From a virus: a stretch of DNA of 64,000 nt. The DNA is taken from positions 36,896 through 100,895 of the IMG/VR virus record IMGVR_UViG_3300007512_000015. The stretch is one strand, 5' to 3'. Below are positions 3,067-63,864 of the stretch, one piece after another. Both the position numbers and the translations under genes were made by a program. Position 1 is the stretch's first letter; each line of letters starts with the position of its first letter. The notes under the pieces are model-generated. The model made no database searches and was not told where the DNA came from. It saw only the letters and a program-made list of their open reading frames with translations.

Positions 3067-3078
3067 GACGATTCTCCA

Positions 3079-3111
3079 GTAAGGGGGTCCTGTAAGGGGG
3101 TCCTGTAAGGA
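3079..3111. repeat. Tandem 13-bp repeat in an intergenic leader
   Basis: GTAAGGGGGTCCT occurs twice back to back (3079-3091 and 3092-3104), followed by a partial third copy. It lies in the 96-base space between the end of the fusion gene and the start at 3066. It could be a regulatory leader or the result of slippage. Confidence 0.7.
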
Positions 3112-3162
3112 CAGGGATTCCACGAGCACAAGTCTCGCTCATAGGGTGAAGGTATAGGAACG

Positions 3163-36857: not shown

Positions 36858-36917
36858 TCGGCGGCTCCTTCAAGGGCATAGCGGTAAAAGGCGTATTGGT
36901 CTGGGGCTATTGAAATC

Positions 36918-45154: not shown

Positions 45155-47061
45155 GTCTTGCCGACCTCGCCATCAACATCGGAAGGCGGGATGCAGATGA
45201 TGATTCCGAAATCGTAGACATCATCACGTTCATCGAGGCTCCGTGGGGCCTCAACATGAAGCTGTTCCCCGTCCAGAAGGTCATCCTAAAGGTCCACTAC
45301 GGGCTGCCTTTGGACGAGAATGCCTTTGGCTTCCCTCTGGACACCCCTATTCCAGAAGACCACCCGGCCTATGACCCTCTCTTGGTGGATAACGATGGCT
45401 ACTACACCCATCGTGTTCCAATCACAGACTGGCGCAGAGAAAACCCCCAGGCTTTCACTGAAGCCGGATACTTGAAGTACCTGTACGAGAACAAACGCTC
45501 CAATGTCGAAGTCCTTGTTCCGGGGCATGAGCGTCGTGAGATGATCTTGAGCATCGGTCGCCGTTCAGGAAAGACCACCATCTCGGCGTGCATCGCTGCC
45601 TACGAAACATACAAACTCATCAGCAAGGGGCACCCACAAGGGTTCTACGGGCTACCTGACTCCAACGTGATTCAGATCATCTCGGTGGCCACGGACAAAG
45701 ACCAAGCTGGCCTGCTTTACCGTGAGTGTCATGGTCACTTCGTGAACTGCGATTTCTTCGCGTCCTACATGGCCAATGCGACCCAGAGCTTCGCTACGTT
45801 CCAGACTCCCAACGACATCGAGAAGTTTGGGCACTACACAGACAATCCTCGGAGCCGGTTCTCCATCAAGGTCACCTTCCGCTCATGCGTAGCAAAGGGT
45901 CTGCGTGGTGCCGGTAACATCGTGGTGATTCTGGACGAGGTGGCTCACTTCACGGATAAGGGCCAATCGGGAGCCGAAGAAGTCTACAACGCGGTCACCC
46001 CCTCTACGTCAGCCTTCTCCAAGAAGGACCCTGATGATTCAAGGAAGCCCATCGGCCCGGTCGAAGGCCGGATCATCCTCATCTCCTCTCCTCTGGGACG
46101 CCAGGGACAGTTCTACAAGCTGTTCGGGATTGGAATGCGCGGCGGCAAGGCAGCGGAGAACATGCTGTGCATCGAGGCACCGACCTGGGAAGTGAACCCC
46201 ACGGTTCCCGCAACCGAGTTCGAGAAGCACTACGTCAAAGACCCCCGTGTGTTCTTTACCGAGTATGGAGGAGAGTTCTCTGACCGGACCAGGGGTTGGA
46301 TTGAGGATCGCCAAGACCTCGTAGCCTGCGTCAAGCCCACCCTGCGGCCCAAGGTTCAAGCACCGCCTCGCGCTCCCCACTTTATGGGCGTCGATGTCGC
46401 CCTCGTAGGGGACTACTCTGCCCTGGCTATCGGCCATAACGACGCCGAAGGCAACATTGTGCTCGACTACATAGAGCGCATCTGTGCCGGGGAAGGGGAC
46501 TTCGTAGGCCAGGACCGCCTTGAGTTCGATGACGTTGCTGACTGGATCGAGAAGTTGGCCAAACGGTTCTACATCACCGAAGGGATTTTCGACCAGTGGG
46601 CAGGCATCCCGATGGAGCAGGCCCTCCGAAAGCGAGGCTTGGGCCAACTCAAATCAGTCCACCACACACGCATGTTGTCGAGCCAGATGTTCCAGAACTT
46701 CAAGGACCAGATGCTTGACCAGCGCCTTGTGCTTTATGATTGGCCCGTCCCCGACGGAGAAGACCACTGCGCCTACATCCAAGAACTCTTGGAGCTTCAA
46801 GCCGAGGTCGTCAGTAAATACATCATTCGCGTGGAAGCCCCGCAAGTCGAAGGAAAGCACGACGACCTCTCTGACGCCTTGATGCGGATGGTGTGGTGTG
46901 CGACCCAGAACGCGAACAAGCAGCACACGGTCATAGGCCACCGGAGAGGGGTCCCCCAATACGCAGGGAACAGCGGAAGGTTTGGACGCGCCCCAAACCA
47001 CGGACGGCGAAAGACCCACAGTTCTCGGACGATCCCTTTGAAGAAGGGTCGGGGACGGTAG
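45151..47061 (+). CDS. terL: Terminase large subunit
   Basis: 636 residues from GTG. ATPase: Walker A GRRSGKTT (~136-143), Walker B IVVILDEVAHF (D262, E263), and a coupling motif ILISSPLGR. RNase H-like nuclease: GVDVALVGDYSAL (D415, D421) and a late acidic HDDLSDAL. It packages DNA into the head through the portal at 48332. Lys/Arg-rich tail. Confidence 0.93.
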   Translation: MSLADLAINIGRRDADDDSEIVDIITFIEAPWGLNMKLFPVQKVILKVHYGLPLDENAFGFPLDTPIPEDHPAYDPLLVDNDGYYTHRVPITDWRRENPQAFTEAGYLKYLYENKRSNVEVLVPGHERREMILSIGRRSGKTTISACIAAYETYKLISKGHPQGFYGLPDSNVIQIISVATDKDQAGLLYRECHGHFVNCDFFASYMANATQSFATFQTPNDIEKFGHYTDNPRSRFSIKVTFRSCVAKGLRGAGNIVVILDEVAHFTDKGQSGAEEVYNAVTPSTSAFSKKDPDDSRKPIGPVEGRIILISSPLGRQGQFYKLFGIGMRGGKAAENMLCIEAPTWEVNPTVPATEFEKHYVKDPRVFFTEYGGEFSDRTRGWIEDRQDLVACVKPTLRPKVQAPPRAPHFMGVDVALVGDYSALAIGHNDAEGNIVLDYIERICAGEGDFVGQDRLEFDDVADWIEKLAKRFYITEGIFDQWAGIPMEQALRKRGLGQLKSVHHTRMLSSQMFQNFKDQMLDQRLVLYDWPVPDGEDHCAYIQELLELQAEVVSKYIIRVEAPQVEGKHDDLSDALMRMVWCATQNANKQHTVIGHRRGVPQYAGNSGRFGRAPNHGRRKTHSSRTIPLKKGRGR

Positions 47062-48020: not shown

Positions 48021-48335
48021 TTGAGTAGATACCGTGCCAGAACCGCTCCTTCAGAGGCAGATCGCGACATCACGCGCCATCTGGACGAAGCAGCACGCCA
48101 TGTTGGACTTGCCTTGGACACCATGAGGCAGCATAAAACTGCCCGGTCGCGTGGCCGTAAGAGGCGCGTGGAGGAAGACCTTATGCGCGTGCTGGGTGCC
48201 ATCAGCAACGTCGGTAGCCTGGAGCCTCGTTACGGCGGCGTGGACGATCCTGACCTCATGTCTGAAGATGCGAGAGCCGCCAAACAGCGAGCGGAGCGGG
48301 ATGCCCGACGGGCAGCCGAAAGAGGTGACGGATGA
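48021..48335 (+). CDS. Small basic head-region protein
   Basis: 104 residues starting at TTG with TGAGG upstream. Very Arg-rich and helical (RSRGRKRRVEEDLMRVLG); ends inside the portal start (ATGA). Possibly a head-completion or DNA-binding protein (inference). Confidence 0.5.
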   Translation: MSRYRARTAPSEADRDITRHLDEAARHVGLALDTMRQHKTARSRGRKRRVEEDLMRVLGAISNVGSLEPRYGGVDDPDLMSEDARAAKQRAERDARRAAERGDG

Positions 48336-50038
48336 CCAAGAAGGGTGATCAGCCTCCTACCGTGGGAACCGTCTCCAATGGCGACGGGAAGAAGAAGGCC
48401 AAGTCAGGCAAGCCTCGCAAGGTCACCGGGTCCATGCGTATGCGTACTGCATCCATCACCACAGGTTTGGGCCACGCTGACACGATAGAAGGCGTAGGGG
48501 GAAACTTCTACAGCCCAGAGCTTTCTACGGACTTCCTGGAGCTTCCCCAGTCTCTCCATGAACAGTGGAACTACTACCGTTTCTTCTATCGTTCCGAGCC
48601 TTTCGTGGGTCAGGCCATTGACCTGCACACCGAACTCCCCCTCTCCAAGATTCGGATTGCCACCCCTGAAGCAAAGAACCGCGACATGGCGGTTGCCGCT
48701 ACGCGGTTCTGTGAGAGGTGGGCCACGCAGATTGGGTTGCTTCACCGCCTCATCGCCATCGTTCACGAGAGGAACCTCATTGGTGAGGTTTTCATCTGGT
48801 GCGAAGACGACAACCCGGAAATGCCGGATGACATCCGAAAGGAACTGCATCGGGAACTCACCGAAGACGGTGAAGTGGTTGAGGAAGAACGTGAACGCGA
48901 GGACGCCGCTGAACGGGCGGTTGCTTGGCTTCAGAAGAACTACAAGGGCTGGACCTCGATTCGGGTACTTCCCCCCGAACAAGTTCAAATGCAGTCCTTC
49001 AACTTCACGGATGAGCGAATCTTCGAGTTGATTCCAGACTCAAAGACCAAGGACATCATCGAGAAATCCCAGCAAGGCGATGAAAACGCCATTCGCATTG
49101 TGAAGTCCATGCCTCCAGACGTGGTGTTTGCAGTGGCCGAGGGGAGCAACATCCCCCTCAACACCGATCCTGACGCGGGGAGCTTCATCTACTACCTCGC
49201 CAACCGCAAATCAGACTACGATTTGCGCGGTCGCTCCATCCTGGAACGGTGTATGCGAGCACTGGTTTACCGGGACAAGTTGCGCCAAGCGCAAACAAGC
49301 ATCGCCTCCCGTCATATGACGCCCATCCGCATCGTTAGCGGGGAGGACTTGGACATTTCTGACGTGGAAGCCTTGCGCGAGCAGGTAGACATGGCACTCC
49401 AAGACCCCGACTACTCCATCATCGCGAACTTCGAGGTTCGCTGGGAAGAGATGGGCGCGGACCAGCGGCTTCTTGATTTGGGGACCGAGTACGACCTTAC
49501 TGACCGTCAGCTTTATTCAGGGCTGGGGGTCACCGAGGGCTTGCTGTCAGGAGAGTCCCAGTACAGCGGTGACCGAATCAATCTCGAAGTGATCAACACC
49601 CGCTACATGCTCTTGCGAGAGCAGGTCCAAGAACTCGTCCAGAACCATATCTTCAAGCCAATGTGTGCCCGCATGGGGTTTGTGGAGGAGGACGAGTTTG
49701 GAGATGAGCGCGTTATCGTTCCGGGCCTTTCGTTCACAAGGCTCGCGCTTCGCGACAACCGGGACACCTTCGATGCTCTGTACAACCTCTACCAGAAGGG
49801 CAGCCTGGACGTGGACACCATCCTCGAACTGCTCAACCTGGACCCTGTGGATGTACGGAGGAAGATCCAGCGTGACCTCTTCACGGTCAACGACCCGACC
49901 TTCAATGAGGCGATGCGCGGAATCTACGGCGACGTGGGACGCGCCTTGGCCGAAAACTCGGATGCTGCCGAACTCATCGCCAAGAACATCGGGCTGGAGT
50001 ACAGCAAGCCCGCAGAAGATGACGGCGGCAGGTACTGA
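48332..50038 (+). CDS. Portal protein
   Basis: 568 residues. The portal-type layout is clear: QWNYYRFFYRSEPFVGQAID near the start, the wing/stem segment LIGEVFIWCEDD, helical GRSILERCMRALVYRDKLR, VTEGLLSGES, and a C-terminal clip/crown region ending acidic. It forms the dodecameric ring through which the terminase packages DNA. Confidence 0.85.
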   Translation: MTKKGDQPPTVGTVSNGDGKKKAKSGKPRKVTGSMRMRTASITTGLGHADTIEGVGGNFYSPELSTDFLELPQSLHEQWNYYRFFYRSEPFVGQAIDLHTELPLSKIRIATPEAKNRDMAVAATRFCERWATQIGLLHRLIAIVHERNLIGEVFIWCEDDNPEMPDDIRKELHRELTEDGEVVEEEREREDAAERAVAWLQKNYKGWTSIRVLPPEQVQMQSFNFTDERIFELIPDSKTKDIIEKSQQGDENAIRIVKSMPPDVVFAVAEGSNIPLNTDPDAGSFIYYLANRKSDYDLRGRSILERCMRALVYRDKLRQAQTSIASRHMTPIRIVSGEDLDISDVEALREQVDMALQDPDYSIIANFEVRWEEMGADQRLLDLGTEYDLTDRQLYSGLGVTEGLLSGESQYSGDRINLEVINTRYMLLREQVQELVQNHIFKPMCARMGFVEEDEFGDERVIVPGLSFTRLALRDNRDTFDALYNLYQKGSLDVDTILELLNLDPVDVRRKIQRDLFTVNDPTFNEAMRGIYGDVGRALAENSDAAELIAKNIGLEYSKPAEDDGGRY

Positions 50039-52289: not shown

Positions 52290-54233
52290 ATGACCTGTAA
52301 GACCGCAAAAGCTGCTGTCCAGCCAGTTCGTCAACGTACCCAGTACACCTGCATGGCTACGTCGATGATGATGTGTCTGCAAGCCCTTGGGCACGAGGTT
52401 GATGAAGACGAGGTGAACAAGGTGATGGGCGCACGGCCTATGAAGGGTGCCGCATGGGAACACGCTTTGGCCTGTGCCCAACACTATGGATGTAGGGCGA
52501 CCCTTACTGTCCCTTCGACTGTGCAGCAACTAAAGGAATGGACAGATCAAGGAATCCCCGTGATGATCGCGTGGAACCCTGAAGGTAGGGAGTGGAGCCA
52601 CGCAAGCGTGGTGTTTGACGTAGACGATGATCTGAATGTTTACGTCGCAGACCCGAACATCCCGGACCCGGACGAAACAGTACGCATCGTCCCCAAGAAG
52701 GACTTCTACAACAAGTGGTACGAAAAGTGGCCTAACTATTTGGTCCGTCGTCCCGCGATGGCAGTCTCTCGGGAGATCACCACCGACGGAAAGCAGGTGA
52801 TGGCTTCAGCCAAGAAGGTTGCCTCCCTGAAACAGACCGCTCGAATCAACTGGCAACGGCTCTCCCGAGGCAAAGGTTGGAAGTACGTCACTCCTGAACT
52901 GCTGGTTCACGTCCTCCCCGTTGAATCATGGGATCACGTCCGGGACAGAGACATCCCCGACGTGCATGAGGTTGCTGATGCAGAACTCACTGCCGACGCA
53001 ATCCCCCATCTGGTTGAGAGCTACAACAAGATGGTCAAGGAGCACGCCAAGTGGGTGCGCCAAGGATGGTGGCCAAGACCTGTGCGAGTCGAGAAGTGGG
53101 AAGTGTGGGCTTACCACCGCCCCTCCAAAAAGGGATTCCGTGGTGTGTTGGATGACGAGAGAACCGCTCTGCGAAGCACCGAGAACGCTATCCCGAAGCT
53201 CCTGGAAAGGAAGAGGCCCTCTTGGCTCAAGCCTGACAATGACGGGCCAACGAGAGCCGCCAAGAGAACCACCGAGGTCCGAAAGAAGAAGGACAAGAAC
53301 GCCCCGGTAAAAGTGAAGGTGGACCGGCTGCGTAACAATCCCGCTGCTGAAGCAGCAGGCGCACGGAAACCTACACGGGGACACCGAAGAAAAGAGAGAG
53401 GGCGCAACGTGGAACGAGGACATTCAAGAAAAGACAAGCACAAGGGAAGGAGGCAAGAGCGCCAATCGGCTGCTTCTCCGTCACGAGTGGCCCTGCGCCA
53501 CGTCCACAGCCGCACCCTTGATTTGAGCGGCATGGACATGGAGGATGCCCTCGATCTTGTCATGGAAAACGTAGGCATCCCCAGATCCGACTACAGTTGG
53601 AAAAGAGGCGAAATCAAACGCCGGGTGATGGGGGATTTGGCCGCTGATGGCAGTCAACAAGCCCTGATTCGAGGCGAGATTCTGTTCTCCCGTGGTGCCT
53701 TTGTTGAGGACCGGAACATCAAGGAGTTCCTAAATCAGTTCCCTCGGGGCGAGGCCGCCCTGAAGCACCGGTTTACCCAGAGCGTCTTGACGAACAGATC
53801 AGACCTCGGACGGGACATCAGAAAGAGAATCCAGCGCAGCCCCAAACAGTTCCTTGGAACACTTTTCGATGACTACCAGGAAGCCGAAGAATACGAACCC
53901 CTTGAAGTGACTGTGGCCCCTGCGGAGTTTAGTCGGCAGGTTCGCGTCGATGCTCGATGGGGAAAACTCATATCTCCCGCCACCGTCGAAGTGAACTTTT
54001 CCGCGAAGAAGCTGCCGCCAGTTGGCGAAGGTGTGTTCAGCATAATGAGCAACACCGAACTCAACCGTTGGATTGAGGGCTGGGCCAGCTACGCACCGGA
54101 GAACTTCTACATGGACGGTGAGACGGGTATGAATAGCAACCAACTGTTCCGGCACTACCGAGAGCAGTGGCGTGGCCTGTCACCCCGTAGACAAGCAGAG
54201 AAGTACAAGTCGCTCCAGCGGTATGTACGGTAG
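52290..54233 (+). CDS. C39-type cysteine protease virion protein
   Basis: 647 residues. Residues ~1-130 are a C39-like papain-fold peptidase: RQRTQYTCMATSMMM (C21), EWSHASVVFD (H104) and VADPN (D121). The middle is an extremely basic low-complexity linker (GHRRKERGRNVERGHSRKDK), with the R-V-A module PSRVALRHVHS after it, and a C-terminal alpha/beta domain. The separate blocks suggest it is cleaved or domain-modular. Its plausible role is virion-protein processing or host-cell action after injection (inference). Confidence 0.7.
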   Translation: MTCKTAKAAVQPVRQRTQYTCMATSMMMCLQALGHEVDEDEVNKVMGARPMKGAAWEHALACAQHYGCRATLTVPSTVQQLKEWTDQGIPVMIAWNPEGREWSHASVVFDVDDDLNVYVADPNIPDPDETVRIVPKKDFYNKWYEKWPNYLVRRPAMAVSREITTDGKQVMASAKKVASLKQTARINWQRLSRGKGWKYVTPELLVHVLPVESWDHVRDRDIPDVHEVADAELTADAIPHLVESYNKMVKEHAKWVRQGWWPRPVRVEKWEVWAYHRPSKKGFRGVLDDERTALRSTENAIPKLLERKRPSWLKPDNDGPTRAAKRTTEVRKKKDKNAPVKVKVDRLRNNPAAEAAGARKPTRGHRRKERGRNVERGHSRKDKHKGRRQERQSAASPSRVALRHVHSRTLDLSGMDMEDALDLVMENVGIPRSDYSWKRGEIKRRVMGDLAADGSQQALIRGEILFSRGAFVEDRNIKEFLNQFPRGEAALKHRFTQSVLTNRSDLGRDIRKRIQRSPKQFLGTLFDDYQEAEEYEPLEVTVAPAEFSRQVRVDARWGKLISPATVEVNFSAKKLPPVGEGVFSIMSNTELNRWIEGWASYAPENFYMDGETGMNSNQLFRHYREQWRGLSPRRQAEKYKSLQRYVR

Positions 54234-55439: not shown

Positions 55440-55901
55440 ATGCGTTTGCCGGACACACGAAAATCCGAGGGGTGGTCTGACTCCGACTGGGTGGATGCCG
55501 AAAAGGCTCAGGATGAGTTGTGGGATCAAGCGCAGGAGCACATCCAAGGCTTCTACGACAAGATCAAAGAAGACATCCGCTTCGCAGAGGACGACCTCAA
55601 GCAGATCCGTGATGGCTTCGCCTGGGCTGAGACGCGGGGCGACATCGGCAGGCTTCGGAAGCGTTTTGAGGGTTCCGTGGGCAGCAAGGCCCTCTCCAAG
55701 AAGGAGTGGGAATGGCTCGACGAGATGCTTTCTGTTCAGTCGAGGAAACTCCCCGATTCAATCTTCCGCATGAACGCCTCAGAGACAGATAAAGCCATGA
55801 GCATCACCGCATATGAGCGCGGTGCGCTCATCAGGCTTGCTTCCACCCTCCCTGTAGGGGACGAGAAGCGTAGGGCCATCCTTTCCGGTCTGGTGCGGTA
55901 A
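55440..55901 (+). CDS. Helical protein with C-terminal LIRLA module
   Basis: 153 residues from an ATG right after the upstream TGA; longer frames start earlier. Charged helical body, and the C-terminus is RGALIRLASTLPVGDEKRRA..., the L-I-R-L-A-S-x-x-P module found near the N-terminus of the genes at 63073 and 63574. Function unknown. Confidence 0.58.
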   Translation: MRLPDTRKSEGWSDSDWVDAEKAQDELWDQAQEHIQGFYDKIKEDIRFAEDDLKQIRDGFAWAETRGDIGRLRKRFEGSVGSKALSKKEWEWLDEMLSVQSRKLPDSIFRMNASETDKAMSITAYERGALIRLASTLPVGDEKRRAILSGLVR

Positions 55902-55946
55902 AGGCTTCAGCAACTTCAAGGTTGCCTCTCAAGCCATCCCTTTTTG
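55902..55946 (+). terminator. Probable terminator hairpin
   Basis: After the stop at 55901, GCAAC-TTCAAG-GTTGC and outer GCTT/AAGC arms form an imperfect stem, followed by CCCTTTTTG. It could end the plus-strand head transcript. Confidence 0.45.
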
Positions 55947-55961
55947 AGACTGGGCTTCTGA

Positions 55962-56267
55962 CTAAGACTGGTCCGGGCGTACATTCTCTCTGCCCTCAAA
56001 GGGGCGCGTGAAGGTGTGAGCCTTCAAAGCCTCAAAGCCGTTGTCCATCAAGATGGGCACAGGGGTAAGGCTGTCCTTGGTCTTGACGAACCACTGGCAC
56101 CGCCATTCCACGTCATTGTGAAGGAACTTGAACACCATGAGGTGTGTCCCCTCTGGATCGAGTTGATTTGCGAACTCGTCCACTGGACCCTGGTTACGGT
56201 TTTCGTACCGAGAGTCAGCCATGAGGGCCAGGAAGCCCTCTGTTGTTGCCATCACCATTTCAGCCAT
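55962..56267 (-). CDS. Unknown small protein
   Basis: 101 residues; AGAGGTGAGCG precedes the ATG. Alpha/beta sequence (THLMVFKFLHNDVEWRCQWF). Its end overlaps a 20-base element repeated at 57126-57145. No family. Confidence 0.5.
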   Translation of the reverse strand: MAEMVMATTEGFLALMADSRYENRNQGPVDEFANQLDPEGTHLMVFKFLHNDVEWRCQWFVKTKDSLTPVPILMDNGFEALKAHTFTRPFEGRENVRPDQS

Positions 56268-56284
56268 CGCTCACCTCTTGTAAA

Positions 56285-56620
56285 TCAAACACCCCACCCC
56301 ATCGAACGGGCTTCGTCGCCACACTCGGGACAGTGGTGAGTGTTGTTCTTGCAGACAGCATCACTGCCATCACGGAACTGCATCCAGTTGCAGTGTTGCC
56401 CAGCGGTCTTGACCTGCTGGATATGCTTGCAGTGCTTCCCGTTCCCGAACTTGTACGCGGAACAGGTACACGAATAGTCGTACTGAACGCTGTGCTGGTT
56501 CCTGTGACCGCTTTTGTTCCACGACACCGTGTAAGTGTTCCCCGTAGAACCTGGGACAGTTGTGGACCAGTTCTCGGACGTAACGCAGTGCCAGAAGTAT
56601 TCAGTCGTCAGATCGGGCAT
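56285..56620 (-). CDS. SWIM-type zinc-finger protein
   Basis: 111 residues. YDYSCTCSAYKFGNGKHCKHI fits the SWIM CxC...CxH zinc finger; a second pair at the end (HHCPECG) may form another knuckle. No helicase or transposase domain is attached. Probably a small DNA/protein-interaction domain. Confidence 0.65.
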   Translation of the reverse strand: MPDLTTEYFWHCVTSENWSTTVPGSTGNTYTVSWNKSGHRNQHSVQYDYSCTCSAYKFGNGKHCKHIQQVKTAGQHCNWMQFRDGSDAVCKNNTHHCPECGDEARSMGWGV

Positions 56621-56898
56621 TGGGGGTTCTCTCCTCCCCCTCTCTACGGCGAGGCGTGATTCCTGGAACCCCCTGCAACAACTCCGGTCTGCTTTCGAGA
56701 AGGGAAGCCGTTTTTGTTGTTGTAACGTGCATAAATCCCCGAAAAACCTACACTTTTAGCTAAATCCCCGGTTGATTCCAGGCCAAATCAGGGTTGGGTC
56801 TTGCTTCCAGGAGCTTGAATCTTGGCGGGTCCAAGAGTTTTTATAGATGCCTTATCTGTCGGTAGTGGTGCTATTGGGGAGGGGAGAAGGAGAGAATC
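56621..56898. other. Intergenic region between divergent genes
   Basis: 278 bases. A hairpin TCTTGG-CGGGT-CCAAGA followed by GTTTTTA at 56820-56843 looks like a rho-independent terminator on the plus strand. No tRNA or gene seen. Confidence 0.4.
56820..56843 (+). terminator. Predicted intrinsic terminator
   Basis: Six-base-pair stem TCTTGG/CCAAGA with a five-base loop, then GTTTTTA. It lies just before a gene start, so it could also act as a leader attenuator. Confidence 0.45.
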
Positions 56899-57145
56899 AT
56901 GGCTTCCCCTTGTCCCGTCCGTGTAGCGACTGCCTACAAATGGGCAGCACGCTCCTGCTTGGACCACAGCCATCACCGACAAGCAAGGACGGGTGGTGTT
57001 TACTGGCTCAAGCACACCCCGCGCAAACCCCGGACAGGTAGTGATTGCGCTGCTGATGGATATGCCCCGCTTCGTAGACTCTAAACGCTGGGACGAGGCG
57101 ACCTACATGCGTGAAGAACGAGTCCGAGACTGGGCTTCCGACTAA
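56899..57145 (+). pseudogene. Frameshifted small gene with N-terminal R-V-A module
   Basis: AAGGAGAGAATC-ATG opens MASPCPVRVATAYKWAARS, a clear R-V-A module start, but this frame ends at 57084. The +1 frame is open from 56927 to a TAA at 57143-57145 and reads as plausible protein (GRVVFTGSS..., VVIALLMDMPRFVDSKR, YMREERVRDWASD). The two would join by a +1 frameshift or a one-base error between 56927 and 57084. The gene's last 20 bases recur at 55946-55965. Confidence 0.5.
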
Positions 57146-57151
57146 CCCGCT

Positions 57152-57580
57152 CTACTTGAGTCCCAGCTTCGCCATGCGATGAGCAGTCGTAGAGGCATCC
57201 CAATCGAACGAGAAGCCACGGCTGTCTGTCGCGACGTTCGGGGAAACATCACAGTCGGACCCCATCCAGGTAGCGATCTGCTTGATCTGTTCCTGTGAAA
57301 TGGTGGGAACACGATCCTCCACAACCTTCATATGGGCCGGGTTACAGCAAACCTTGGTCATGCAGGTCTGCACAAGGGAGCTATCAGAGGGGACTGTCCC
57401 CCGCGAAATAACGTACATAGCCTTGTGTGCGGCGAGTGTTTCGCCTTTGCCGTTGGGAGAGTATTCCCCATAGCCTTCAGGCCCCAGCTTTCCTTCCCAG
57501 TTCCAACAGCCACTCTCATCGTGACCAATCGAACCCAAGATGGCTTTCGCGTGTTCCAGGCCCAAATCTGCATACCTCAT
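57152..57580 (-). CDS. HNH-like zinc protein, catalytic His missing
   Basis: 142 residues; GAGGTGAAGT precedes the ATG. GCWNWEGKLGPEGYGEYSP, LAAHKAMYVISRGTVP and CMTKVCCNPAHMKV follow the HNH layout (WxG...H...P...HxC...CxNPxH). The usual first His of VxHxC is replaced (VQTC), so nuclease activity is doubtful. Zinc Cys appear kept. Confidence 0.6.
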   Translation of the reverse strand: MRYADLGLEHAKAILGSIGHDESGCWNWEGKLGPEGYGEYSPNGKGETLAAHKAMYVISRGTVPSDSSLVQTCMTKVCCNPAHMKVVEDRVPTISQEQIKQIATWMGSDCDVSPNVATDSRGFSFDWDASTTAHRMAKLGLK

Positions 57581-57745
57581 ACTTCACCTCGCTTTGATGT
57601 TCTACCTATACCCCTATATCGACAAGATAATCCCCCTCTTTAGGGAGTCACCACAAAAAACGCGGAGATAATCGAGCTTCTCGGGGTTCCGAAGAGCGAT
57701 TTTCCCCCGTAAAGAGGACAGGGAGGCCGTATAGCCGGAAGACCC
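57581..57745. promoter_or_regulatory. Divergent intergenic region
   Basis: 165 bases between the HNH-like gene and a small zinc-ribbon gene. Contains an AT-rich part (CCCCTATATCGACAAGATAA) and an imperfect GCTTC...GAAGAGC stem followed by GATTTT. Probable promoter region; no confident consensus. Confidence 0.35.
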
Positions 57746-57883
57746 ATGATCATCAAGACCAACTGCCAAAAGTGCGGAAAGAAGAAAGCCATCAAGAACA
57801 AGGTGGTGTTCATTCCGGGCGACTGCATCATCACCACCGTAGGGAAGGGATGCCATAAGTGCGGCTGGAAGCCCGGTGATTGA
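57746..57883 (+). CDS. 45-residue zinc-ribbon protein
   Basis: ATG with CGGAAG upstream. Two CxxC pairs (CQKCGKKKA, CHKCGWKP) about 25 residues apart form a zinc ribbon. Very basic. Function unknown. Confidence 0.55.
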   Translation: MIIKTNCQKCGKKKAIKNKVVFIPGDCIITTVGKGCHKCGWKPGD

Positions 57884-57917
57884 TTCTCTATAGGGGGTGA
57901 GCCATAGGAGTACGATC

Positions 57918-58898
57918 ATGTCCAAGCCCTCCCCTGCGAATGTAGTCAAAGCCTACGGAGCCATAGGTCCCGATGGGGACTGGTACGAAGATGACGGCTA
58001 CGACCGCTATTCCGATGCGGACTACGGCTACGACGCGCCACCATGCGAAGAACAAGATTTCTTCCATGATCTGGAGAAGATGACGGCCCAAACCGCCGAA
58101 AGGTTCTTCAGACAAAAGGTGATTCCAGAACTGAAGAGTATGCGCTGGAGCGTCAAAGCAAGTTTTGACTACGGGCTTGGCGAAGACATGGTTTCTGACC
58201 GGGAAGGGTGGGTCTACTATGTTGGAGGCGCAGAGCTAAAAGGCAAGGCAGGGCAAAAGCTCCTCCTCCCCCGCAACAAAGCCATTGTTCTTGATCGGAA
58301 CGTGGACTTCGACATCGGCTTCTGGGTTGCTATGGGGGACGGCGACGAAGAGATAGCGGTGGGGACCGGCAAGTACACGGGGGATGGCTGGAATGAACCC
58401 CGCCAAGAACTTGAAGCCTACATAGACATTGAGTGTCCTGACCCAAAAGACATCATCGGGATCGCGTTCGCTTGGGAAGGCGAAGAGCCTCGCAGATGGT
58501 TCAAGCCCTCCCAAGTAAACAAGATGCTTGAACTGTTCTCCGTCACCTTTCCGAAAGAGGTGAAGATCAGGTCCAAGATCAAGAAGAGGGCAGCAGACGA
58601 GACCGGAGGGTCCTTTCGGGCGGCCAGTGCTGGTCGGGTTGCATCGGCTTACCGGATCGCCCGATCCCAAAGGACTGGCACGGAGCACGCCACCGAGGAA
58701 GCCCGCAAGAAGCACCTCAAGGAACACCCGAACGCTGATCCAAGCGACCACACGGTAGAGAAGAAAGAGAAGCCCGAGAAGAAGCTGGACCTCGGAAAGT
58801 CCCTGGAGAAAAGCAAGGGCGTGAAGAAAAAGGTCGATGAAAAGCTCGATGAACTCTTCGATTTCGCCGGGGCCAGTCAGTACACCAGCAAGGGCTGA
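57918..58898 (+). CDS. Virion-region protein with R-V-A and HP-module
   Basis: 326 residues; TAGGAG precedes the ATG. The N-terminus is NVVKAYGAIG, then acidic Tyr-rich DDGYDRYSDADYGY, a beta-rich body, then RAASAGRVASAYRIARS (R-V-A module), HLKEHPNADPSDHTVEKK (the HP-x-A-x3-DHT-[IV] segment shared with the 3163 fusion), and a Lys-rich coil tail. Function unknown; likely an internal virion protein (inference). Confidence 0.58.
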   Translation: MSKPSPANVVKAYGAIGPDGDWYEDDGYDRYSDADYGYDAPPCEEQDFFHDLEKMTAQTAERFFRQKVIPELKSMRWSVKASFDYGLGEDMVSDREGWVYYVGGAELKGKAGQKLLLPRNKAIVLDRNVDFDIGFWVAMGDGDEEIAVGTGKYTGDGWNEPRQELEAYIDIECPDPKDIIGIAFAWEGEEPRRWFKPSQVNKMLELFSVTFPKEVKIRSKIKKRAADETGGSFRAASAGRVASAYRIARSQRTGTEHATEEARKKHLKEHPNADPSDHTVEKKEKPEKKLDLGKSLEKSKGVKKKVDEKLDELFDFAGASQYTSKG

Positions 58899-58899
58899 T

Positions 58900-59100
58900 T
58901 CAGCGGGACAGCCCCAGGAACCGCTTCCAGGACGTAGGCTTTTCAGCTTCCGGGGGTTCTGCTTCAGGCTCCGAAGCCTTGGGAACAGAGCACTCAAGCA
59001 GAGTGCGTTCCAACTCCTCGGTGATGTTCACCATGTCCATGTCGGACACGTCCACCGTGGTTGCATCCTGTCGAGGAGCCTTCCTCGCTGGAGGCAGCAT
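58900..59100 (-). CDS. Small acidic protein
   Basis: 66 residues starting inside the stop of the previous gene (TGATG). Acidic, with VDVSDMDMVNITEELE, ending KRFLGLSR. Function unknown. Confidence 0.45.
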   Translation of the reverse strand: MLPPARKAPRQDATTVDVSDMDMVNITEELERTLLECSVPKASEPEAEPPEAEKPTSWKRFLGLSR

Positions 59101-59489
59101 CAGGGACGACCACGCAGCTTGAACAGCAAATCCTGGGCTTTCTTCGCCACGTCCTTCGAGTCGGAACGGCGGCCAGAGAACTCAATGTCGCCATCCACTG
59201 TGGTTCCGTCTGGTCGGCTGATCACAATGGCTACAACACCCTTCTTTCCAGTCCAGTACACGTCCAAGGCGTAAGGAAGCATCGCGTTGAAGGGTTCGGC
59301 ATTGTAAGCCTCACCCTCGATATGCGCCCCAGCCCACCCATAAGAGGTATCTACCTTTGCAGGACCAATGGGGTTCACGGCAGCCTTGGTAGCAATCATC
59401 AGCATCTGCTTGGTGACTGCTTCGTATACGTTGCTTACCCTGGCTTCCTTTCGCATGACGTTGCGAATCGCTGTTCTTTTGGGATCCAT
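59100..59489 (-). CDS. Unknown small protein
   Basis: 129 residues; CAGGAG precedes the ATG at 59489 (the longer frame to 59627 overlaps another gene). Basic N-terminus with RNVMRKEARVSNVYEAVTK, then alpha/beta. Function unknown. Confidence 0.52.
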   Translation of the reverse strand: MDPKRTAIRNVMRKEARVSNVYEAVTKQMLMIATKAAVNPIGPAKVDTSYGWAGAHIEGEAYNAEPFNAMLPYALDVYWTGKKGVVAIVISRPDGTTVDGDIEFSGRRSDSKDVAKKAQDLLFKLRGRP

Positions 59490-59491
59490 CT

Positions 59492-59947
59492 TCAACTCCT
59501 GAATCCCTTGGGTCCTGCTCGCCAACCGCTCCAGGTAAGGCGATAGCCTTGTTGGCCTGTTCGGGGCGACGTAACGGGTTCGACCTTGATTCGAGCCTTC
59601 TCGGCTTCCTCGGATCGGCGCAACCATGCCTCACTCAAGCCATACCTTTCGCTTTCAGCGAGGTAGCCTGCTTCCTCGTGGACGTATGCCCAAAGCTGGT
59701 CCTGGACGGCCTTTGGCGTCAAAGCAGGGCCGATGAGGTCATGGTTGTCCTTGAGGAAGACCTTCCCCTGGCTGTTCAACAGCTTGGCGATGTAGAACCC
59801 CAAGTCCCGAAGCACACCTTTAGGGCTGCCTTTTCCTCGACCGAGCTTATCCACGTCGATGAAATCCGTGCCTGCGACCCGAGTCCAATCATAGGACGAT
59901 AGGACCGCATACGCCGCAGCAACACGACTTGGGGAAGCAACGGGCAT
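59492..59947 (-). CDS. Protein with N-terminal R-V-A module
   Basis: 151 residues. Starts MPVASPSRVAAAYAVLSSYD, a clear R-V-A module, followed by a helical charged body (DLGFYIAKLLNSQGKVFLKD). Very close to its neighbours on both sides. Function unknown. Confidence 0.55.
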   Translation of the reverse strand: MPVASPSRVAAAYAVLSSYDWTRVAGTDFIDVDKLGRGKGSPKGVLRDLGFYIAKLLNSQGKVFLKDNHDLIGPALTPKAVQDQLWAYVHEEAGYLAESERYGLSEAWLRRSEEAEKARIKVEPVTSPRTGQQGYRLTWSGWRAGPKGFRS

Positions 59948-60730
59948 TCATCCCCCGCAGAGGGAAAGACGCTTGTTGAGGTAGCGAAGCATGGTTCCAA
60001 TCTCGCGAACCGTCTTGGACTTCTCGGGGATGATCCCCAACGCAAGGTCCTGACGTGCGCCCTGCATACGACCGAGAGGCTTACGCATCATCTTCGTAAG
60101 GGCTTGTGACAGGTCGGAACGCTCCATGCGAAGCAGCGTGCCCTGTGCATCTTCCAGGGCACTCAAGAGGCCCTGTGCGTCCTCACGGGAGGATGCGCCC
60201 ATCGCCTGTCCCAGACTGTCCATCATGTAGCGGAGTTCTGGCACGCAGGCAGCGGCCTCCTCGCCCTTCCAAAGACCACCGACATCACCCAGACCGACCG
60301 GATACTCGCCCATAGGCAGCTTCTTTCCGTCCGGGGTGCGGTGCTTGTTACCGAAAGCGTCGATGTAGCCGGAACGCAAGGACTTCATGTACCGACTCTG
60401 CATCTCGCGCTGGGCTTCGGGGAGCGAGTCCTTGTAGATGATCTTCTGCCGCTTCTGGTCCACGGAGCCTTTGTCTGTAAGACGGCCCCACTGACGAAGC
60501 AGCTTGTAGCCACCGCCCTGTTCCGGGGTGATCAACTGCTCATAGAACTTGGAACTGTTCTTCGCTCGATCCAGGAACCAGACCATCGTGGCCATGCCGT
60601 CACGCACGGAGTTCTTATTCACGCCTGGGGTAAGAGCGCCACGACGCGCTTCCTTCAGTAGTGGAAGCAGGTGGGCACGGAGTTCCGGCTTCTCGTAAGC
60701 CAGCTTGATGCAAGCGATGCGAAGGTTCAT
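59948..60730 (-). CDS. Helical protein with N-terminal LIKLA module
   Basis: 260 residues; CTGGAGAACCCC precedes the ATG at 60730. Starts MNLRIACIKLAYEKPELRAH then LLPLLKEA, the L-x-K-L-A-x3-PELR module. Body is a long helical, Arg/Lys-rich protein. Function unknown. Confidence 0.55.
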   Translation of the reverse strand: MNLRIACIKLAYEKPELRAHLLPLLKEARRGALTPGVNKNSVRDGMATMVWFLDRAKNSSKFYEQLITPEQGGGYKLLRQWGRLTDKGSVDQKRQKIIYKDSLPEAQREMQSRYMKSLRSGYIDAFGNKHRTPDGKKLPMGEYPVGLGDVGGLWKGEEAAACVPELRYMMDSLGQAMGASSREDAQGLLSALEDAQGTLLRMERSDLSQALTKMMRKPLGRMQGARQDLALGIIPEKSKTVREIGTMLRYLNKRLSLCGG

Positions 60731-60785
60731 GGGGTTCTCCAGAAATGTTTGCTGTTCGTTCGGTATAGGCTGTTGATTCAAGGGG

Positions 60786-61163
60786 TTACCCGTCCACGTT
60801 TACAAAGGCGTAGACACGAGCACCGCTGGAATCAGGATCCAGGGCGACGACGAGGGAACCGGTGAGCGTTCTTTCGTAGTCCTCGGCGTTGGGGTCATCG
60901 TTCTCCATCGTGAGGTTAGAGAACATGCGGCCACCCATCGCCTTCGTCACCTTTCGATCAATCTCCAGAGATCCGGGACGAGCCATCGGGTAGTGCTTCA
61001 AGAACATCTTTTCGATGTCCCGAGGTTTGAGGTTGACTTCAAACTTCGAGAAGATCGGAACCTTGTCCACCGCACCTTGCTTCAGGATCGGGAGGAGGTC
61101 CTCCCTAAGCTCAGGGCGGGCATGAGCCAGCTTGATGAGCTTTTCGCGTAGGGGATCTGACAT
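60786..61163 (-). CDS. Protein with N-terminal LIKLA module
   Basis: 125 residues; AAGGAGC precedes the ATG. Starts with LREKLIKLAHARPELREDLL, the same module as 59948. The rest is alpha/beta. Function unknown. Confidence 0.55.
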   Translation of the reverse strand: MSDPLREKLIKLAHARPELREDLLPILKQGAVDKVPIFSKFEVNLKPRDIEKMFLKHYPMARPGSLEIDRKVTKAMGGRMFSNLTMENDDPNAEDYERTLTGSLVVALDPDSSGARVYAFVNVDG

Positions 61164-61216
61164 AGCAGGGTGCTCCTTCTCGGAACCCTACCGGAATAGA
61201 CACTTCACCGAAGCAG

Positions 61217-61263
61217 AGGCGGTAAACCGCCTATCAAACACGGACGGTGGTAGCAGAACCACC
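61217..61263. promoter_or_regulatory. Two inverted repeats in a divergent region
   Basis: AGGCGGT-AA-ACCGCCT (61217-61232) and GGTGGT-AGCAGA-ACCACC (61246-61263) lie between divergent genes. Could be operators or a leader structure. Confidence 0.45.
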
Positions 61264-61280
61264 TGATCCCTTGGAAGAAG

Positions 61281-62459
61281 ATGGAAAACCCCTCCTCTAA
61301 TCGCGTAGCGACTGCCTTTTTACGGAAGGCCCGTCACAGCATGAAGATCAGGGGCATGAGTCCCATCGACATGCTGGGCCGGATACGAGACCTCTCCGAT
61401 TTGATCAAAGGTGGTGCTGACCATCTGTGGGAGGGGCGCAACACCCCTGATCCCACGCCTGCCCAGGTGAAGGCTTGGAGACAAGAGCGTAAAGCTCTCC
61501 TGGAGTTGTTTGGTCAGTTCGAGTTGGGTGCAGTGCATCTGCATGACATCAAGGACTGGAAGATGTACCAGAAGATGAAGGTGGCCTATGGCGGTTATCC
61601 GGGCGGCCCCGGTCAGTACGGGGACGCAACCGAGGACCCAAGCATCTACCATGAAGAGGAGGTGGACCCCTGCGAGGAGAACCCCGAGTACATCGGCATG
61701 TCACTGGATGATGTAGTTGGGTGTGCCCCCGATGCGGTCGATGATTGGATGGAGGCTGCCGAAGGCGTCATGGCAGGCTTGAAAAGGCTCGGGTTCAAGG
61801 TGCGCGAGGGCAAGGATTGGCACGAGGACGGTCAACTCAGGATGAGGATTTTCATCCAGGGGCCGCTCGGAAAAGCCGAGATCGACATCACAGGGAACAT
61901 CGACCCCAACGGACAACTCAAGAGGGGCTGGGGTCTTTACGCTGGGATCGTGAGGGGTGCCGACTGGTGGGACCTCAAGCATCTCAAGCACGGTGAGATC
62001 GAGATGGACGGCGGCAACGTCAGGCGGTTCGTCAAGAAGGTCCTGGAGGTCTGGGCTGACGGTGGCATGAACCGCACCCGGAGGGCTTCTTCTAAGGCCA
62101 GTGCCGAGAGGGTCGCTGCCGCTTTCTTGAAGCAAGGATCATGGGAGATTCACAAGGAGTGGCAGGCTGCGTATCGTTCAGGGATGGGCGACATGCAGAA
62201 AAGATGGACCGCCCTACTCAATAAAGCAGGGCGACAGTTCAAGAAGGACGACTGGAAGCTGGAGCCTCAAAGCTGGCTTGGCCACTACAACCACGGCTCA
62301 GATGGCGCTCGCATGGACGGGATGTTGTTTTTTGAGGATCTCCGCAACGAGGCACGAGGCACACGCGAGACCGAAGACTGGCTGGAAGCGAACCTTGGCC
62401 TCAGCTACAACCTGACGGGTCGCGGCTACGGCAAGTGGTCCTTGAGCCTTGAAGAATAA
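61281..62459 (+). CDS. Virion-region protein with two R-V-A modules
   Basis: 392 residues; TTGGAAGAAG precedes the ATG. Starts with SSNRVATAFLRKARHSM; a second copy, SSKASAERVAAAFLKQGSW, lies at ~270-288, splitting the protein into two halves. Middle has acidic MDGGN-type and helical parts. Function unknown. Confidence 0.58.
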   Translation: MENPSSNRVATAFLRKARHSMKIRGMSPIDMLGRIRDLSDLIKGGADHLWEGRNTPDPTPAQVKAWRQERKALLELFGQFELGAVHLHDIKDWKMYQKMKVAYGGYPGGPGQYGDATEDPSIYHEEEVDPCEENPEYIGMSLDDVVGCAPDAVDDWMEAAEGVMAGLKRLGFKVREGKDWHEDGQLRMRIFIQGPLGKAEIDITGNIDPNGQLKRGWGLYAGIVRGADWWDLKHLKHGEIEMDGGNVRRFVKKVLEVWADGGMNRTRRASSKASAERVAAAFLKQGSWEIHKEWQAAYRSGMGDMQKRWTALLNKAGRQFKKDDWKLEPQSWLGHYNHGSDGARMDGMLFFEDLRNEARGTRETEDWLEANLGLSYNLTGRGYGKWSLSLEE

Positions 62460-62470
62460 GGGAGTTCAGA

Positions 62471-62686
62471 ATGTCTGAAGCAGGAATGGTTGCATGTAAG
62501 ATCGGGCTTCAAGCTCCCGTAGCCGCCCCCGGCTGAAATCAGTTGGGCGTAGCTATCGCCGCTATGGGCATCAAGATCGACAACGCTACGATTGCCCAGC
62601 ATGTCTGGGACGGTATCAAGTCCGGTTACACGGAAGTAGACAGCCTGAGTGAATACCTGTGCCGGGAAATGGGCGCGGACGGCTAA
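62471..62686 (+). pseudogene. Small frame interrupted by an in-frame TGA
   Basis: GGGAGTTCAGA-ATG gives 21 residues, then TGA (62534-62536). The same frame stays open for 49 more codons (GVAIAAMGIKIDNATIAQHV) to a TAA sharing CTAA with the opposing gene. It could be two short genes (second from ATG 62564) or one gene with a nonsense change. Confidence 0.45.
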
Positions 62687-62967
62687 CCCTCGACCATGTT
62701 CAGGAGCACTTGCTCCCCTACTACGTCCTCGATGGTGTCTGCGATATGGCACGCGGCCTCATCCAAGATCGTATCGGGTGCATAGTGGGCACGCGGGGAC
62801 GGGACCCACTGACTCTTGAACACAGTGACCCAAGCAGCCGTGTTCTCGTTGTACTTCTGAATCATCGTGCGGATTCGGTTCTTACGGGCCTCAACACAGC
62901 ACCGCAACGGAAGCACTATCTCTACGTCTTTGACGAGGTACGAAGTCTCCACCCACTTCGACTTCAC
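62683..62967 (-). CDS. Unknown small protein
   Basis: 94 residues from GTG. Alpha/beta (VEIVLPLRCCVEARKNRIRT), helical end. Shares a CTAA stop with the plus-strand frame. No family. Confidence 0.5.
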   Translation of the reverse strand: MKSKWVETSYLVKDVEIVLPLRCCVEARKNRIRTMIQKYNENTAAWVTVFKSQWVPSPRAHYAPDTILDEAACHIADTIEDVVGEQVLLNMVEG

Positions 62968-63072
62968 AGAGCAAATCCAAAAACTTGAGCGGCTGGCATA
63001 TACACCTCGGGGAGTCAGCCCTTTTGAATACGGTTTTCGCCGTTCAGAAAGACCCCCCTCTGTGGAGGCGCT

Positions 63073-63501
63073 TTATCTCCAGAGTTGAACCGTAGGGGGC
63101 TTGCCTTCGCCTCCCCAGGAAACCGACACAGCGATTCGGATGTAGCCTTTCCATGCTCGAATCTCCATTTCGTTGCCGACCATCCCTTCGTACCGATTCA
63201 TTCCACCACGGCCCCATCCTTCCTTCTTCAGCTTCTTGATCTTGGCCAAGGCGCGGGCCATAGCATCCCACTCCTCCTTCACCCTGACCTCATGCGTGAC
63301 GACCCTGGTCATGGACTCAAGCGTGTACTCGTGCCTGCCCGTTTGGCTGTCTACGCCCTGGTAGATGAAAGACCGTGTCCAGCCCTTTGCGGTCTTTTTC
63401 AAACCTGAAAGGATAGTCCTACGCTCCTCCGAACCTTTGGGGAGAGTAGAAGCGAGTCGAATGAGCTTCTTACGATCAGATCCGGTAAGGGTTTTAGACA
63501 T
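63073..63501 (-). CDS. Duplicated-start protein A with LIRLA module
   Basis: 142 residues. Starts MSKTLTGSDRKKLIRLASTL then PKGSEERRTILSGLKK. The 5' leader and first codons are nearly identical to the gene at 63574. Body is basic, alpha/beta. Function unknown. Confidence 0.6.
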   Translation of the reverse strand: MSKTLTGSDRKKLIRLASTLPKGSEERRTILSGLKKTAKGWTRSFIYQGVDSQTGRHEYTLESMTRVVTHEVRVKEEWDAMARALAKIKKLKKEGWGRGGMNRYEGMVGNEMEIRAWKGYIRIAVSVSWGGEGKPPTVQLWR

Positions 63502-63513
63502 AGGGGATTTCCT
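63435..63513 (-). repeat. Direct repeat copy 1 (gene start and leader)
   Basis: The leader (GGAAATCCCCT-ATG) and the first ~20 codons closely match the copy at about 63800-63878, with scattered substitutions. Confidence 0.65.
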
Positions 63514-63573
63514 ACAGGGTGTTTGTACTTGTGTCGGGGCAATAGGGAATCAACCAAGTTCGCGGAGCCATGC
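63502..63573. other. Short repeat-bearing intergenic region
   Basis: 72 bases containing a GGGCAATAGGGAA element (~63538) that also occurs near 63905; it is the leader of the upstream repeat unit. No gene. Confidence 0.5.
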
Positions 63574-63864
63574 TTACTTACCAAACGCACCGCGAATGTC
63601 TCGGAAAGCGAGTTCCACAGCAGCTTCAGCCAGACGGTAAGCGTCTGGGCCGTAGACCCCATGCTTCTGCAAAGCAGGGTACATCACGTCGTACCATGCT
63701 TTCTTGGGTGACAGTCGCGCAGTCTTGTCGGTTTTTGGCTGAACCACACCCGAAGCCTTAGACAATCCAGCGAGGATAGCCTTACGCTCGGGGGAACCCT
63801 TCTCCATCGTGGAGGCGAGTCGAATGAGGGTTTTTCGATCTGAAGCGGTGAGGGTTTTAGACAT
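63574..63864 (-). CDS. Duplicated-start protein B with LIRLA module
   Basis: 96 residues. Starts MSKTLTASDRKTLIRLASTM then EKGSPERKAI. Near-identical start to 63073 but an unrelated C-terminal part (AWYDVMYPALQKHGVYG, YRLAEAAVELAFRDIRGAF). Confidence 0.6.
   Translation of the reverse strand: MSKTLTASDRKTLIRLASTMEKGSPERKAILAGLSKASGVVQPKTDKTARLSPKKAWYDVMYPALQKHGVYGPDAYRLAEAAVELAFRDIRGAFGK

Follow-up and report, generated by a model that had tools for sequence, protein, structure and literature searches.

A two-helix peptide carried by many unrelated proteins of very large uncultured bacterial viruses is apparently a removable label for loading into the head. Judging from sequence, this segment (M1), together with an alternative short tag (M2), probably constitutes a portable capsid-loading tag that is cut off by the prohead protease. 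The window considered here is the whole stretch of 64,000 nucleotides that was analysed (table 1), for which a preliminary description had suggested a common tag for targeting or packaging that the prohead protease may remove. This reading, in which we infer both packaging and cleavage, fits best and is backed by the unrelated cargoes, the location of the tag at either end or internally, its changes of position, its replacement by M2, its association with one capsid lineage and a motif on its cargo side.

Table 1. Head genes, tagged proteins and tag copies in the window.
Feature	Position	Strand	Details
Head maturation protease	14..1426	-	phrog_18299, E 1.2e-14
Cys-rich (Zn-ribbon-like) head-cluster protein	1429..1995	-	M2-like SASAERVAEAAV
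1713-aa multidomain protein, M2-like junctions	3163..8304	-	tRNA nucleotidyltransferase/PolyA_pol, PAP2 phosphatase, type IB topoisomerase
Terminase large subunit	45151..47061	+	phrog_2, E 3.7e-30
Portal protein	48332..50038	+	phrog_16240, E 5e-29; 65% identity to LR745208.1
Internal M2 (SPSRVALRH)	53466..53531	+	ORF 52290-54233, N-terminal C39-type peptidase domain
153-aa protein with C-terminal M1	55440..55901	+	no Pfam/PHROG match
M1 tag	55800..55892	+	AYERGALIRLASTLPVGDEKRRAILSGLVR, C-terminus of ORF 55440-55901
Internal M2 (SAGRVASAY)	58617..58682	+	ORF 57897-58898; preceded by KKRAA and FRAAS
M2 (SPSRVAAAYA)	59879..59944	-	N-terminus of ORF 59492-59947
WGR-domain protein, N-terminal M1	59948..60781	-	PF05406, E 2.5e-7
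M1 tag	60647..60730	-	MNLRIACIKLAYEKPELRAHLLPLLKEA, ORF 59948-60781
M1 tag	61077..61163	-	MSDPLREKLIKLAHARPELREDLLPILKQ, N-terminus of ORF 60786-61163
M2 (SSNRVATAFL)	61284..61349	+	N-terminus of ORF 61281-62459
Second M2, internal (SAERVAAAFL)	62091..62156	+	ORF 61281-62459
M1 tag, ends in KKTA	63394..63501	-	MSKTLTGSDRKKLIRLASTLPKGSEERRTILSGLKK, N-terminus of ORF 63073-63501
M1 tag	63754..63864	-	N-terminus of ORF 63574-63864

All five copies of the LI[RK]LA...P...L module reported initially were recovered where they had been placed, one at a C-terminus and four at N-termini (table 1). Searched with a five-copy profile against all six-frame ORFs of the 100.9-kb contig, they score E 5e-16 to 1.5e-11, values inflated because the same copies trained the profile. 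A sixth M1 gene (L002:13373-14017(-)), just outside the window and directly adjoining the major capsid gene, was absent from the training and holds two more copies (E 9e-13); beyond these six genes, the next match in the contig has E 0.57 and the best shuffled match E 0.44. As significant pairwise BLASTP alignments of the five proteins are confined to the 25–38-residue tag (E 6e-15 to 8e-6), the claim that these proteins are otherwise unrelated holds. The sixth gene had been missed by the preliminary description, as had a second recurring motif, SxxRVAxRYL (M2), which the contig carries in six or more further genes. ORF 59948-60781 has an ATG in frame at 60730 and GGAG just before it; this is probably the true start and would place the beginning of translation exactly at the tag. 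The M1 copy of ORF 60786-61163 matches 11 places in LR745208.1.

M1 is a family of similar segments of 25–30 residues on unrelated proteins, predicted by AlphaFold2 to form a helix-turn-helix (helix 7–19, helix 25–39; core pLDDT approx. 92). The comparison across related genomes proposed earlier shows it recurring in approximately 100 distinct proteins from approximately 38 viral contigs, with up to 16 copies per record. Among 104 distinct copies, 82 are N-terminal, eight C-terminal and 14 internal, at domain junctions, and some polyproteins bear two or three. M1 tracks one capsid lineage of huge phages: the same capsid protein (81–91% identity) is found on 12 of the 15 tag-bearing contigs of at least 100 kb, and the capsid protein of this lineage matched 532 viral loci in one scan. 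A cellular origin was rejected, no confirmed copy being found among 84,980 bacterial and archaeal genomes. Among isolated phages, the 63073-type tag gave zero matches and the 60786-type tag matched LR745208.1 only, while searches of 100 kb of Tunturi_5 and 50 kb of phage G, the nearest cultured relatives, found no tag. A literature search retrieved no published mention of the tag sequences.

A putative cleavage motif, [KR]-x-A, lies on the cargo side of the tag in both arrangements. It follows N-terminal tags in 78/96 cases (versus 23–26 expected from within-window shuffles) and precedes C-terminal or internal tags in 21/40 (versus 10 expected), with no enrichment over the 14 residues that come next. 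Against its being a cleavage site, the motif is short and 18 of the 96 N-terminal tags have no [KR]xA nearby. Beside M2, the motif is found in 9/17 and 5/10 cases, versus 4.9% in the control. In Tunturi_5, the form [KR]xA[SAG] occurs at approximately 2.5–4.7 times expectation in scaffold, portal, ejection and DarB-like proteins; in this contig, it does so in the protease, the scaffold-like protein and further proteins on the head side. Tail proteins and most replication proteins show no enrichment. The T4-type LxE was rejected as cut site: [LI]xE is enriched after N-terminal tags (35/96 versus 18), largely as LLKEA, and fits these tags only, as it fails before C-terminal or internal ones (1/40 versus 4.3 expected). 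A further candidate, [ASG]xE, corresponding to the phiKZ/SPN3US type of site (A-x-E or S/G-x-E), is weaker than [KR]xA (29/96 versus 23 after N-terminal tags; 17/40 versus 9 before C-terminal or internal ones).

To one variant, which overlaps with the preferred explanation, we grant a small but appreciable chance: [KR]xA would be the mere end of the second helix, and the tag would target the capsid and stay uncut. The motif often stands directly after the helix (offset 0–2 from its end in 72/96 N-terminal tags), and the AlphaFold2 helix runs through it. However, [KR]xA is also found ahead of C-terminal and internal tags, a position that does not involve the second helix, and scaffold, protease and DarB-like proteins that bear no tag are enriched in it as well.

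The domains recognized in tagged proteins include ART-PolyVal, RelA_SpoT, 2H (2H-SAK), WGR, SWIM and pentapeptide, with one to three members each for ART-PolyVal, RelA_SpoT, 2H-SAK and others. The majority of tagged proteins are small and have a single recognized domain or none, and several tagged polypeptides contain at least two. In its predicted domains, this cargo resembles injected ‘polyvalent’ effectors, and the 1713-aa protein is, as far as its sequence tells, a cargo of the polyvalent type. The head genes follow the order protease, scaffold, major capsid protein, which is identical in Tunturi_5 and matches T4 genes 21-22-23 (protease-scaffold-capsid); the scaffold was called from its position, acidity and low complexity, without a family match. 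We propose the head maturation protease of the window as the enzyme removing the tags. Compared by hhalign, M1 and a conserved island of the scaffold-like protein (contig 35570-36970) give pairwise E-values of 1e-4 to 3e-3 (probability 11–57%), a score equalled in 0/150 column shuffles, for an aligned part of approximately 10 columns in a pair first picked by regex; homology between the two is suggestive only, and the tag may imitate one of the scaffold's own hairpins. A similar-looking stretch at the N-terminus of the major capsid protein (KLIxxxxxTPxGRxKLAAS) raised the idea of the tag being a copy of it, which was discarded after profile comparison (E 0.13–0.22, probability below 1%). The isolation paper of Tunturi_5 makes no mention of mass spectrometry (virion proteomics).

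Varied cargo with a portable tag at either terminus would appear alike if the tag sent proteins not to the capsid but to another intracellular site, such as a phage-made compartment, the membrane or a replication centre, and many tagged genes indeed lie far from the head cluster. We nevertheless regard such a destination as improbable: the cargo is polyvalent-like, the Pfam and PHROG matches listed for 99 tagged proteins include no replication or nucleotide-metabolism enzyme, scaffold, portal and ejection proteins are enriched in the very motif that flanks the tag, and the two-copy tagged gene adjoins the capsid gene.

On homologous cargo, M1 passes from the N- to the C-terminus (L065:2944-3795 versus L060:2251-3075, E 1e-20) or gives way to M2, as between L045:2992-3840 and L005:19468-20367 (full-length identity 59%; masking the tag gives 65% over 250 aa); further replacements of M1 by M2 were found between L045/L149, L019/L124 and L005/L098. 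An apparent move from internal to N-terminal (L025 versus L013) was discarded, the alignment being confined to the tag region. Since tags move and are swapped on the same cargo, a general fold core, which the preliminary description had set against its own proposal, is disfavoured. It is very doubtful that M1 serves as a small domain for interaction or DNA binding, i.e. a functional part of each protein spread by domain shuffling. A helix-turn-helix prediction would suit such a role, small helical hairpins commonly binding DNA or protein, but no recurrent Pfam or PHROG family covers the tag (none matches more than 3 of the 99 tagged proteins), and a linear motif on the cargo side suits removal. 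Finally, a DNA-level element, namely a duplicated 5′ cassette boosting translation or recombination with the peptide coded passively, is scarcely credible: ORFs 63073-63501 and 63574-63864 agree at 13/14 positions just upstream of the start codon (ribosome-binding region), and codon identity among the LR745208 copies is above chance (0.44 versus 0.28), but M1 is conserved at the peptide level while synonymous codons turn over, more than half of the identical residues using different codons, and C-terminal and internal copies retain frame and residues.

The principle of a short peptide loading unrelated cargo, and this principle only, is shared with encapsulins, whose cargo-loading peptides serve the HK97-fold shell of a bacterial compartment and are C-terminal and unproteolysed. 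In T4, the capsid-targeting sequence (CTS) of IPI, IPII, IPIII and Alt is a short terminal peptide common to divergent internal proteins, which are injected, and Alt is processed at both ends (PMC9026906). The comparison with T4 drawn at the outset stands for the proposed way of working, M1 too being a short terminal peptide on unrelated proteins with a presumed location inside the head, but not for the cut site or portability. The T4 CTS needs approximately 10 residues, cut by gp21 after L/I-x-E, whereas M1 is a longer hairpin with [KR]xA, multiplied within a record, placed at either end or inside polyproteins, and interchangeable with a second tag. The huge heads of phiKZ and SPN3US likewise hold many cleaved internal and ejected proteins (PMC10052503); their propeptides, however, mostly span 111–254 residues, are N-terminal in almost all cases and are cleaved after AxE by a gp245-type protease, whereas this clade has one short shared tag and a putative [KR]xA site. 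Polyvalent proteins are multidomain (ART, NTase, RelA/SpoT, 2H), and for those encoded by phages, packaging into the capsid and injection have been predicted (Iyer et al. 2017, PMC5512222), a paper in which a text search found no loading tag. The tagged cargo overlaps with this class in its domains, as in the fusion of NTase, PAP2 and Topo IB, but here the domains also occur as single small proteins with their own tag, or joined by tags.

If M1 and M2 are head-loading tags, the hairpin would dock onto the inner core during prohead assembly, most likely onto the acidic scaffold-like protein encoded between the protease and the major capsid protein (the candidate receptor), and would so pull its cargo inside the prohead. 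Cleavage by the prohead protease after [KR]-x-A would then free the cargo and dispose of the tag and, at internal tags, would divide polyproteins into several cargoes. Once mature, the cargo would accompany the ejected DNA into the next host and act there early in infection. It is conceivable, at slightly less than even chances, that the whole clade relies on such mix-and-match loading, two interchangeable tags at protein ends and polyprotein junctions bringing dozens of effectors inside, and the protease in the head both stripping the tags and freeing the effectors individually.

Which unknown proteins huge phages carry in the particle and inject is a long-standing gap, as the majority of these viruses lack an isolate and the function of most of their genes is not known. 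If the tag is a loading signal, such proteins would become readable from sequence alone, and the peptide would be a candidate for carrying proteins of choice into phage heads of very large size. In addition, [KR]-x-A would give a rule, open to testing, for where the prohead protease of this widespread capsid lineage cuts.

The preliminary description had reported a module, LI[RK]LA...P...L (here M1; the whole tag spans 25-30 residues), in five small window ORFs named by their start coordinates (55440, 59948, 60786, 63073 and 63574) and regarded as otherwise unrelated; all five copies were found where it placed them, and mutual significant alignment of the proteins is indeed confined to this tag. 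A profile built from these copies was run on all six-frame ORFs of the 100,895-base viral contig, of which the window occupies bases 36,896-100,895. Besides the training copies themselves (5e-16 to 1.5e-11), it retrieved two more, one at each end of an untrained gene adjoining the capsid gene; after these six genes, the next match scored 0.57, and the best match in shuffled ORFs 0.44. For 59948, an in-frame ATG at 60730 is very likely where the tag begins. Upstream of 63073 and 63574, the 14 bases 5' of the start codons agree at 13 positions (xTAGGAAATCCCCT), which suggests that a single duplication copied the tag along with its ribosome-binding region. The same scan revealed a second short tag, M2 (SxxRVAxRYL type; motif [SAP]xxRVAxx[YFH]), recurring N-terminally or internally in other genes of the contig.

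Cargo, that is, the protein part to which a tag is attached, was compared between related viral records with the tag masked, with additional unmasked checks of pairs. In these comparisons, M1 changes ends on homologous cargo or is replaced by M2 (table). Accordingly, M1 acts as a tag rather than as a general fold core, the case that the preliminary description had named as refuting its reading and which is now disfavoured.

Features and homologous cargo pairs (L-numbers denote viral records; L002 is the studied contig beyond the window)
Location	Tag or module	Feature
Window 2005-3129 (-)	Third shared module, A-[DE]FNAD[ED]IGxxVPGPLVxDPP...FTQ...L, preceded by KQA or KTA	Otherwise different from 54278-55438
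Window 3163-8304 (-)		1713-aa fusion: tRNA nucleotidyltransferase, PAP2-type phosphatase, type IB topoisomerase
Window 50225-51322 (+)		Ferritin/Dps-like domain (phrog_3636, E 2.5e-9) and long tail in one fusion
Window 54278-55438 (+)	As 2005-3129, KQA or KTA again preceding	
Window 57897-58898 (+)	xxxEEARKKYLxEHPxADPxxHTV after tag	
Window 63073-63501 (-)	M1	
Window 63574-63864 (-)	M1	
L002:13373-14017	M1 at both ends	Adjoins capsid gene
L002:14301-15173 (-)		Major capsid protein
L002:16067-17395 (-)		Scaffold-like protein, upstream of capsid gene
L045:2992-3840	M1, N-terminal	Full-length homologue of L005:19468-20367 (M2-like ASPIKVAFRHL, same place)
L045:3844-4788	M1	Homologous to L149:736-1830 (M2)
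L019:2968-4092	M1	Homologous to L124:15161-15796 (M2)
L005:14565-15296	M1	Cargo matches domain directly after an M2 in 1506-aa protein of L098
L065:2944-3795	M1, N-terminal	Homologous to L060:2251-3075 (M1, C-terminal), E 1e-20

The portal of this virus is 65% identical to that of LR745208.1, an uncultured huge phage of 485 kb; Tunturiibacter phage Tunturi_5 and Bacillus phage G match it less strongly. Just past the portal gene lies the ferritin/Dps-like fusion, possibly a head-packaged DNA-binding protein. The head cassette runs protease, acidic scaffold-like protein, 250-aa protein, major capsid protein, double-M1 gene and M2 gene. In the viral collection, the major capsid protein matches 532 loci; identity is 89-100% among the 80 best of these, an unusual conservation beside strongly divergent adjacent genes. 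At least 11 copies of M1 are present in LR745208.1; with one exception, they sit at a start codon or very close to it, in the form M(x)TLRSKLIRLAHxNPxLRxxLLPLLK. An alignment of these copies retrieved 70 loci on approximately 38 contigs of the viral collection (up to 16 copies per record); none of 84,980 genomes of bacteria and archaea gave a confirmed match. The clade capsid protein (81-91% identity) is present on 12 of the 15 tag-bearing contigs of at least 100 kb, and the other three may be fragments. M1 is absent from several records of the capsid clade, among them a 312-kb record, read whole, with M2 at N- and C-termini alike.

Some M1 loci overlap, and some stem from contigs that are nearly identical. 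Counting by sequence gave 104 distinct copies, of which a simple positional rule places 82 at the N-terminus, 8 at the C-terminus and 14 internally; some large proteins carry M1 two or three times between domains (1243 aa in L182, 868 aa in L186). M1 is conserved as a peptide: the same codon is used at 44% of identical residues versus 28% expected from usage, an excess that fits spread by duplication. AlphaFold2 predicts helices at residues 7-19 and 25-39 (56 tags, mean pLDDT 84).

On their cargo side, 78 of 96 N-terminal M1 copies have the short motif [KR]xA within approximately 14 residues (same-window shuffles: 23-26, maximum 37 in 1000), as do 21 of 40 C-terminal or internal ones (shuffle mean 10, maximum 16); the adjoining 14 residues show no enrichment. 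[KR]xA also accompanies M2 (9/17 and 5/10 versus 4.9% of control windows). From these sequence patterns, together with the protein enrichments that follow, we infer that [KR]xA is the site of the prohead protease. Since [KR]xA[SAG] was examined in many proteins, single-protein enrichments over shuffled sequences should not be over-read, be it in Tunturi_5 (scaffold 9 versus 2.0; DNA-ejection protein 14 versus 3.0; DarB-like protein 10 versus 3.3; portal 7 versus 2.4; gp348 12 versus 3.2) or in the protease, scaffold-like protein and several head-side proteins of the studied contig. Counts close to expectation were obtained for tail fibres, sheath, terminase and polymerases, with one nucleotidyltransferase of Tunturi_5 as an exception. 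The studied contig's own portal is at expectation. The Tunturi_5 set nameable beforehand (scaffold, protease, portal, ejection, DarB) totals 42 versus approximately 11.5, and the remaining tested Tunturi_5 proteins, excluding gp345 and gp348, approximately 38 versus 34. KTAS-type motifs are repeated in gp348 and the DarB-like gp350 of this cultured relative, suggesting that the two are processed internal head proteins.

T4 internal proteins have a capsid-targeting sequence (CTS) in common, of which 10 residues are sufficient, and are cut by gp21 after L/I-x-E, both ends of Alt being processed (PMC9026906). The propeptides of SPN3US are long for the most part, with cleavage after AxE (PMC10052503). 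The parallel with T4 drawn in the preliminary description holds for the probable CTS-like working of M1, but not for the cut site, as the [LI]xE rule fails on the cargo side of C-terminal and internal copies. Because of this failure, M1 is not classed among the T4 CTSs. None of the papers searched contains the tag sequences looked for.

Domains among 99 scanned tagged proteins include DUF2958, RelA_SpoT, ART-PolyVal, 2H phosphoesterase, WGR, pentapeptide repeats, SWIM and similar families, with no replication enzymes among those listed. They overlap the repertoire of polyvalent proteins, of which those encoded by phages are described as 'likely to be packaged in the capsid' (PMC5512222). The 1713-aa fusion is of this polyvalent kind; M2-bearing junctions vary among its relatives. 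The EEARKKYL-containing linker module of the table also follows tags in polyproteins of L182, L186 and L045, and often precedes a Lys/Pro-rich linker in several tagged proteins.

The scaffold-like protein is very acidic, with a single conserved island, ERKAAKCIRIAxAMLGxxAxxxxIEDQALxLMD, shared by most relatives whose copy could be read, and a helical bundle is predicted there. The island is an IRxA helix-turn-helix reminiscent of the tag; its first helix resembles M1, with weak statistical support. The N-terminus of the major capsid protein was rejected as a look-alike, showing no similarity. Given this weakly supported resemblance and the dissimilar capsid N-terminus, the scaffold-like protein as M1 receptor is a guess. 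In the mechanism that we propose, the M1 hairpin would dock onto the prohead core, the docked cargo would become enclosed, and the protease would then cut at [KR]xA.
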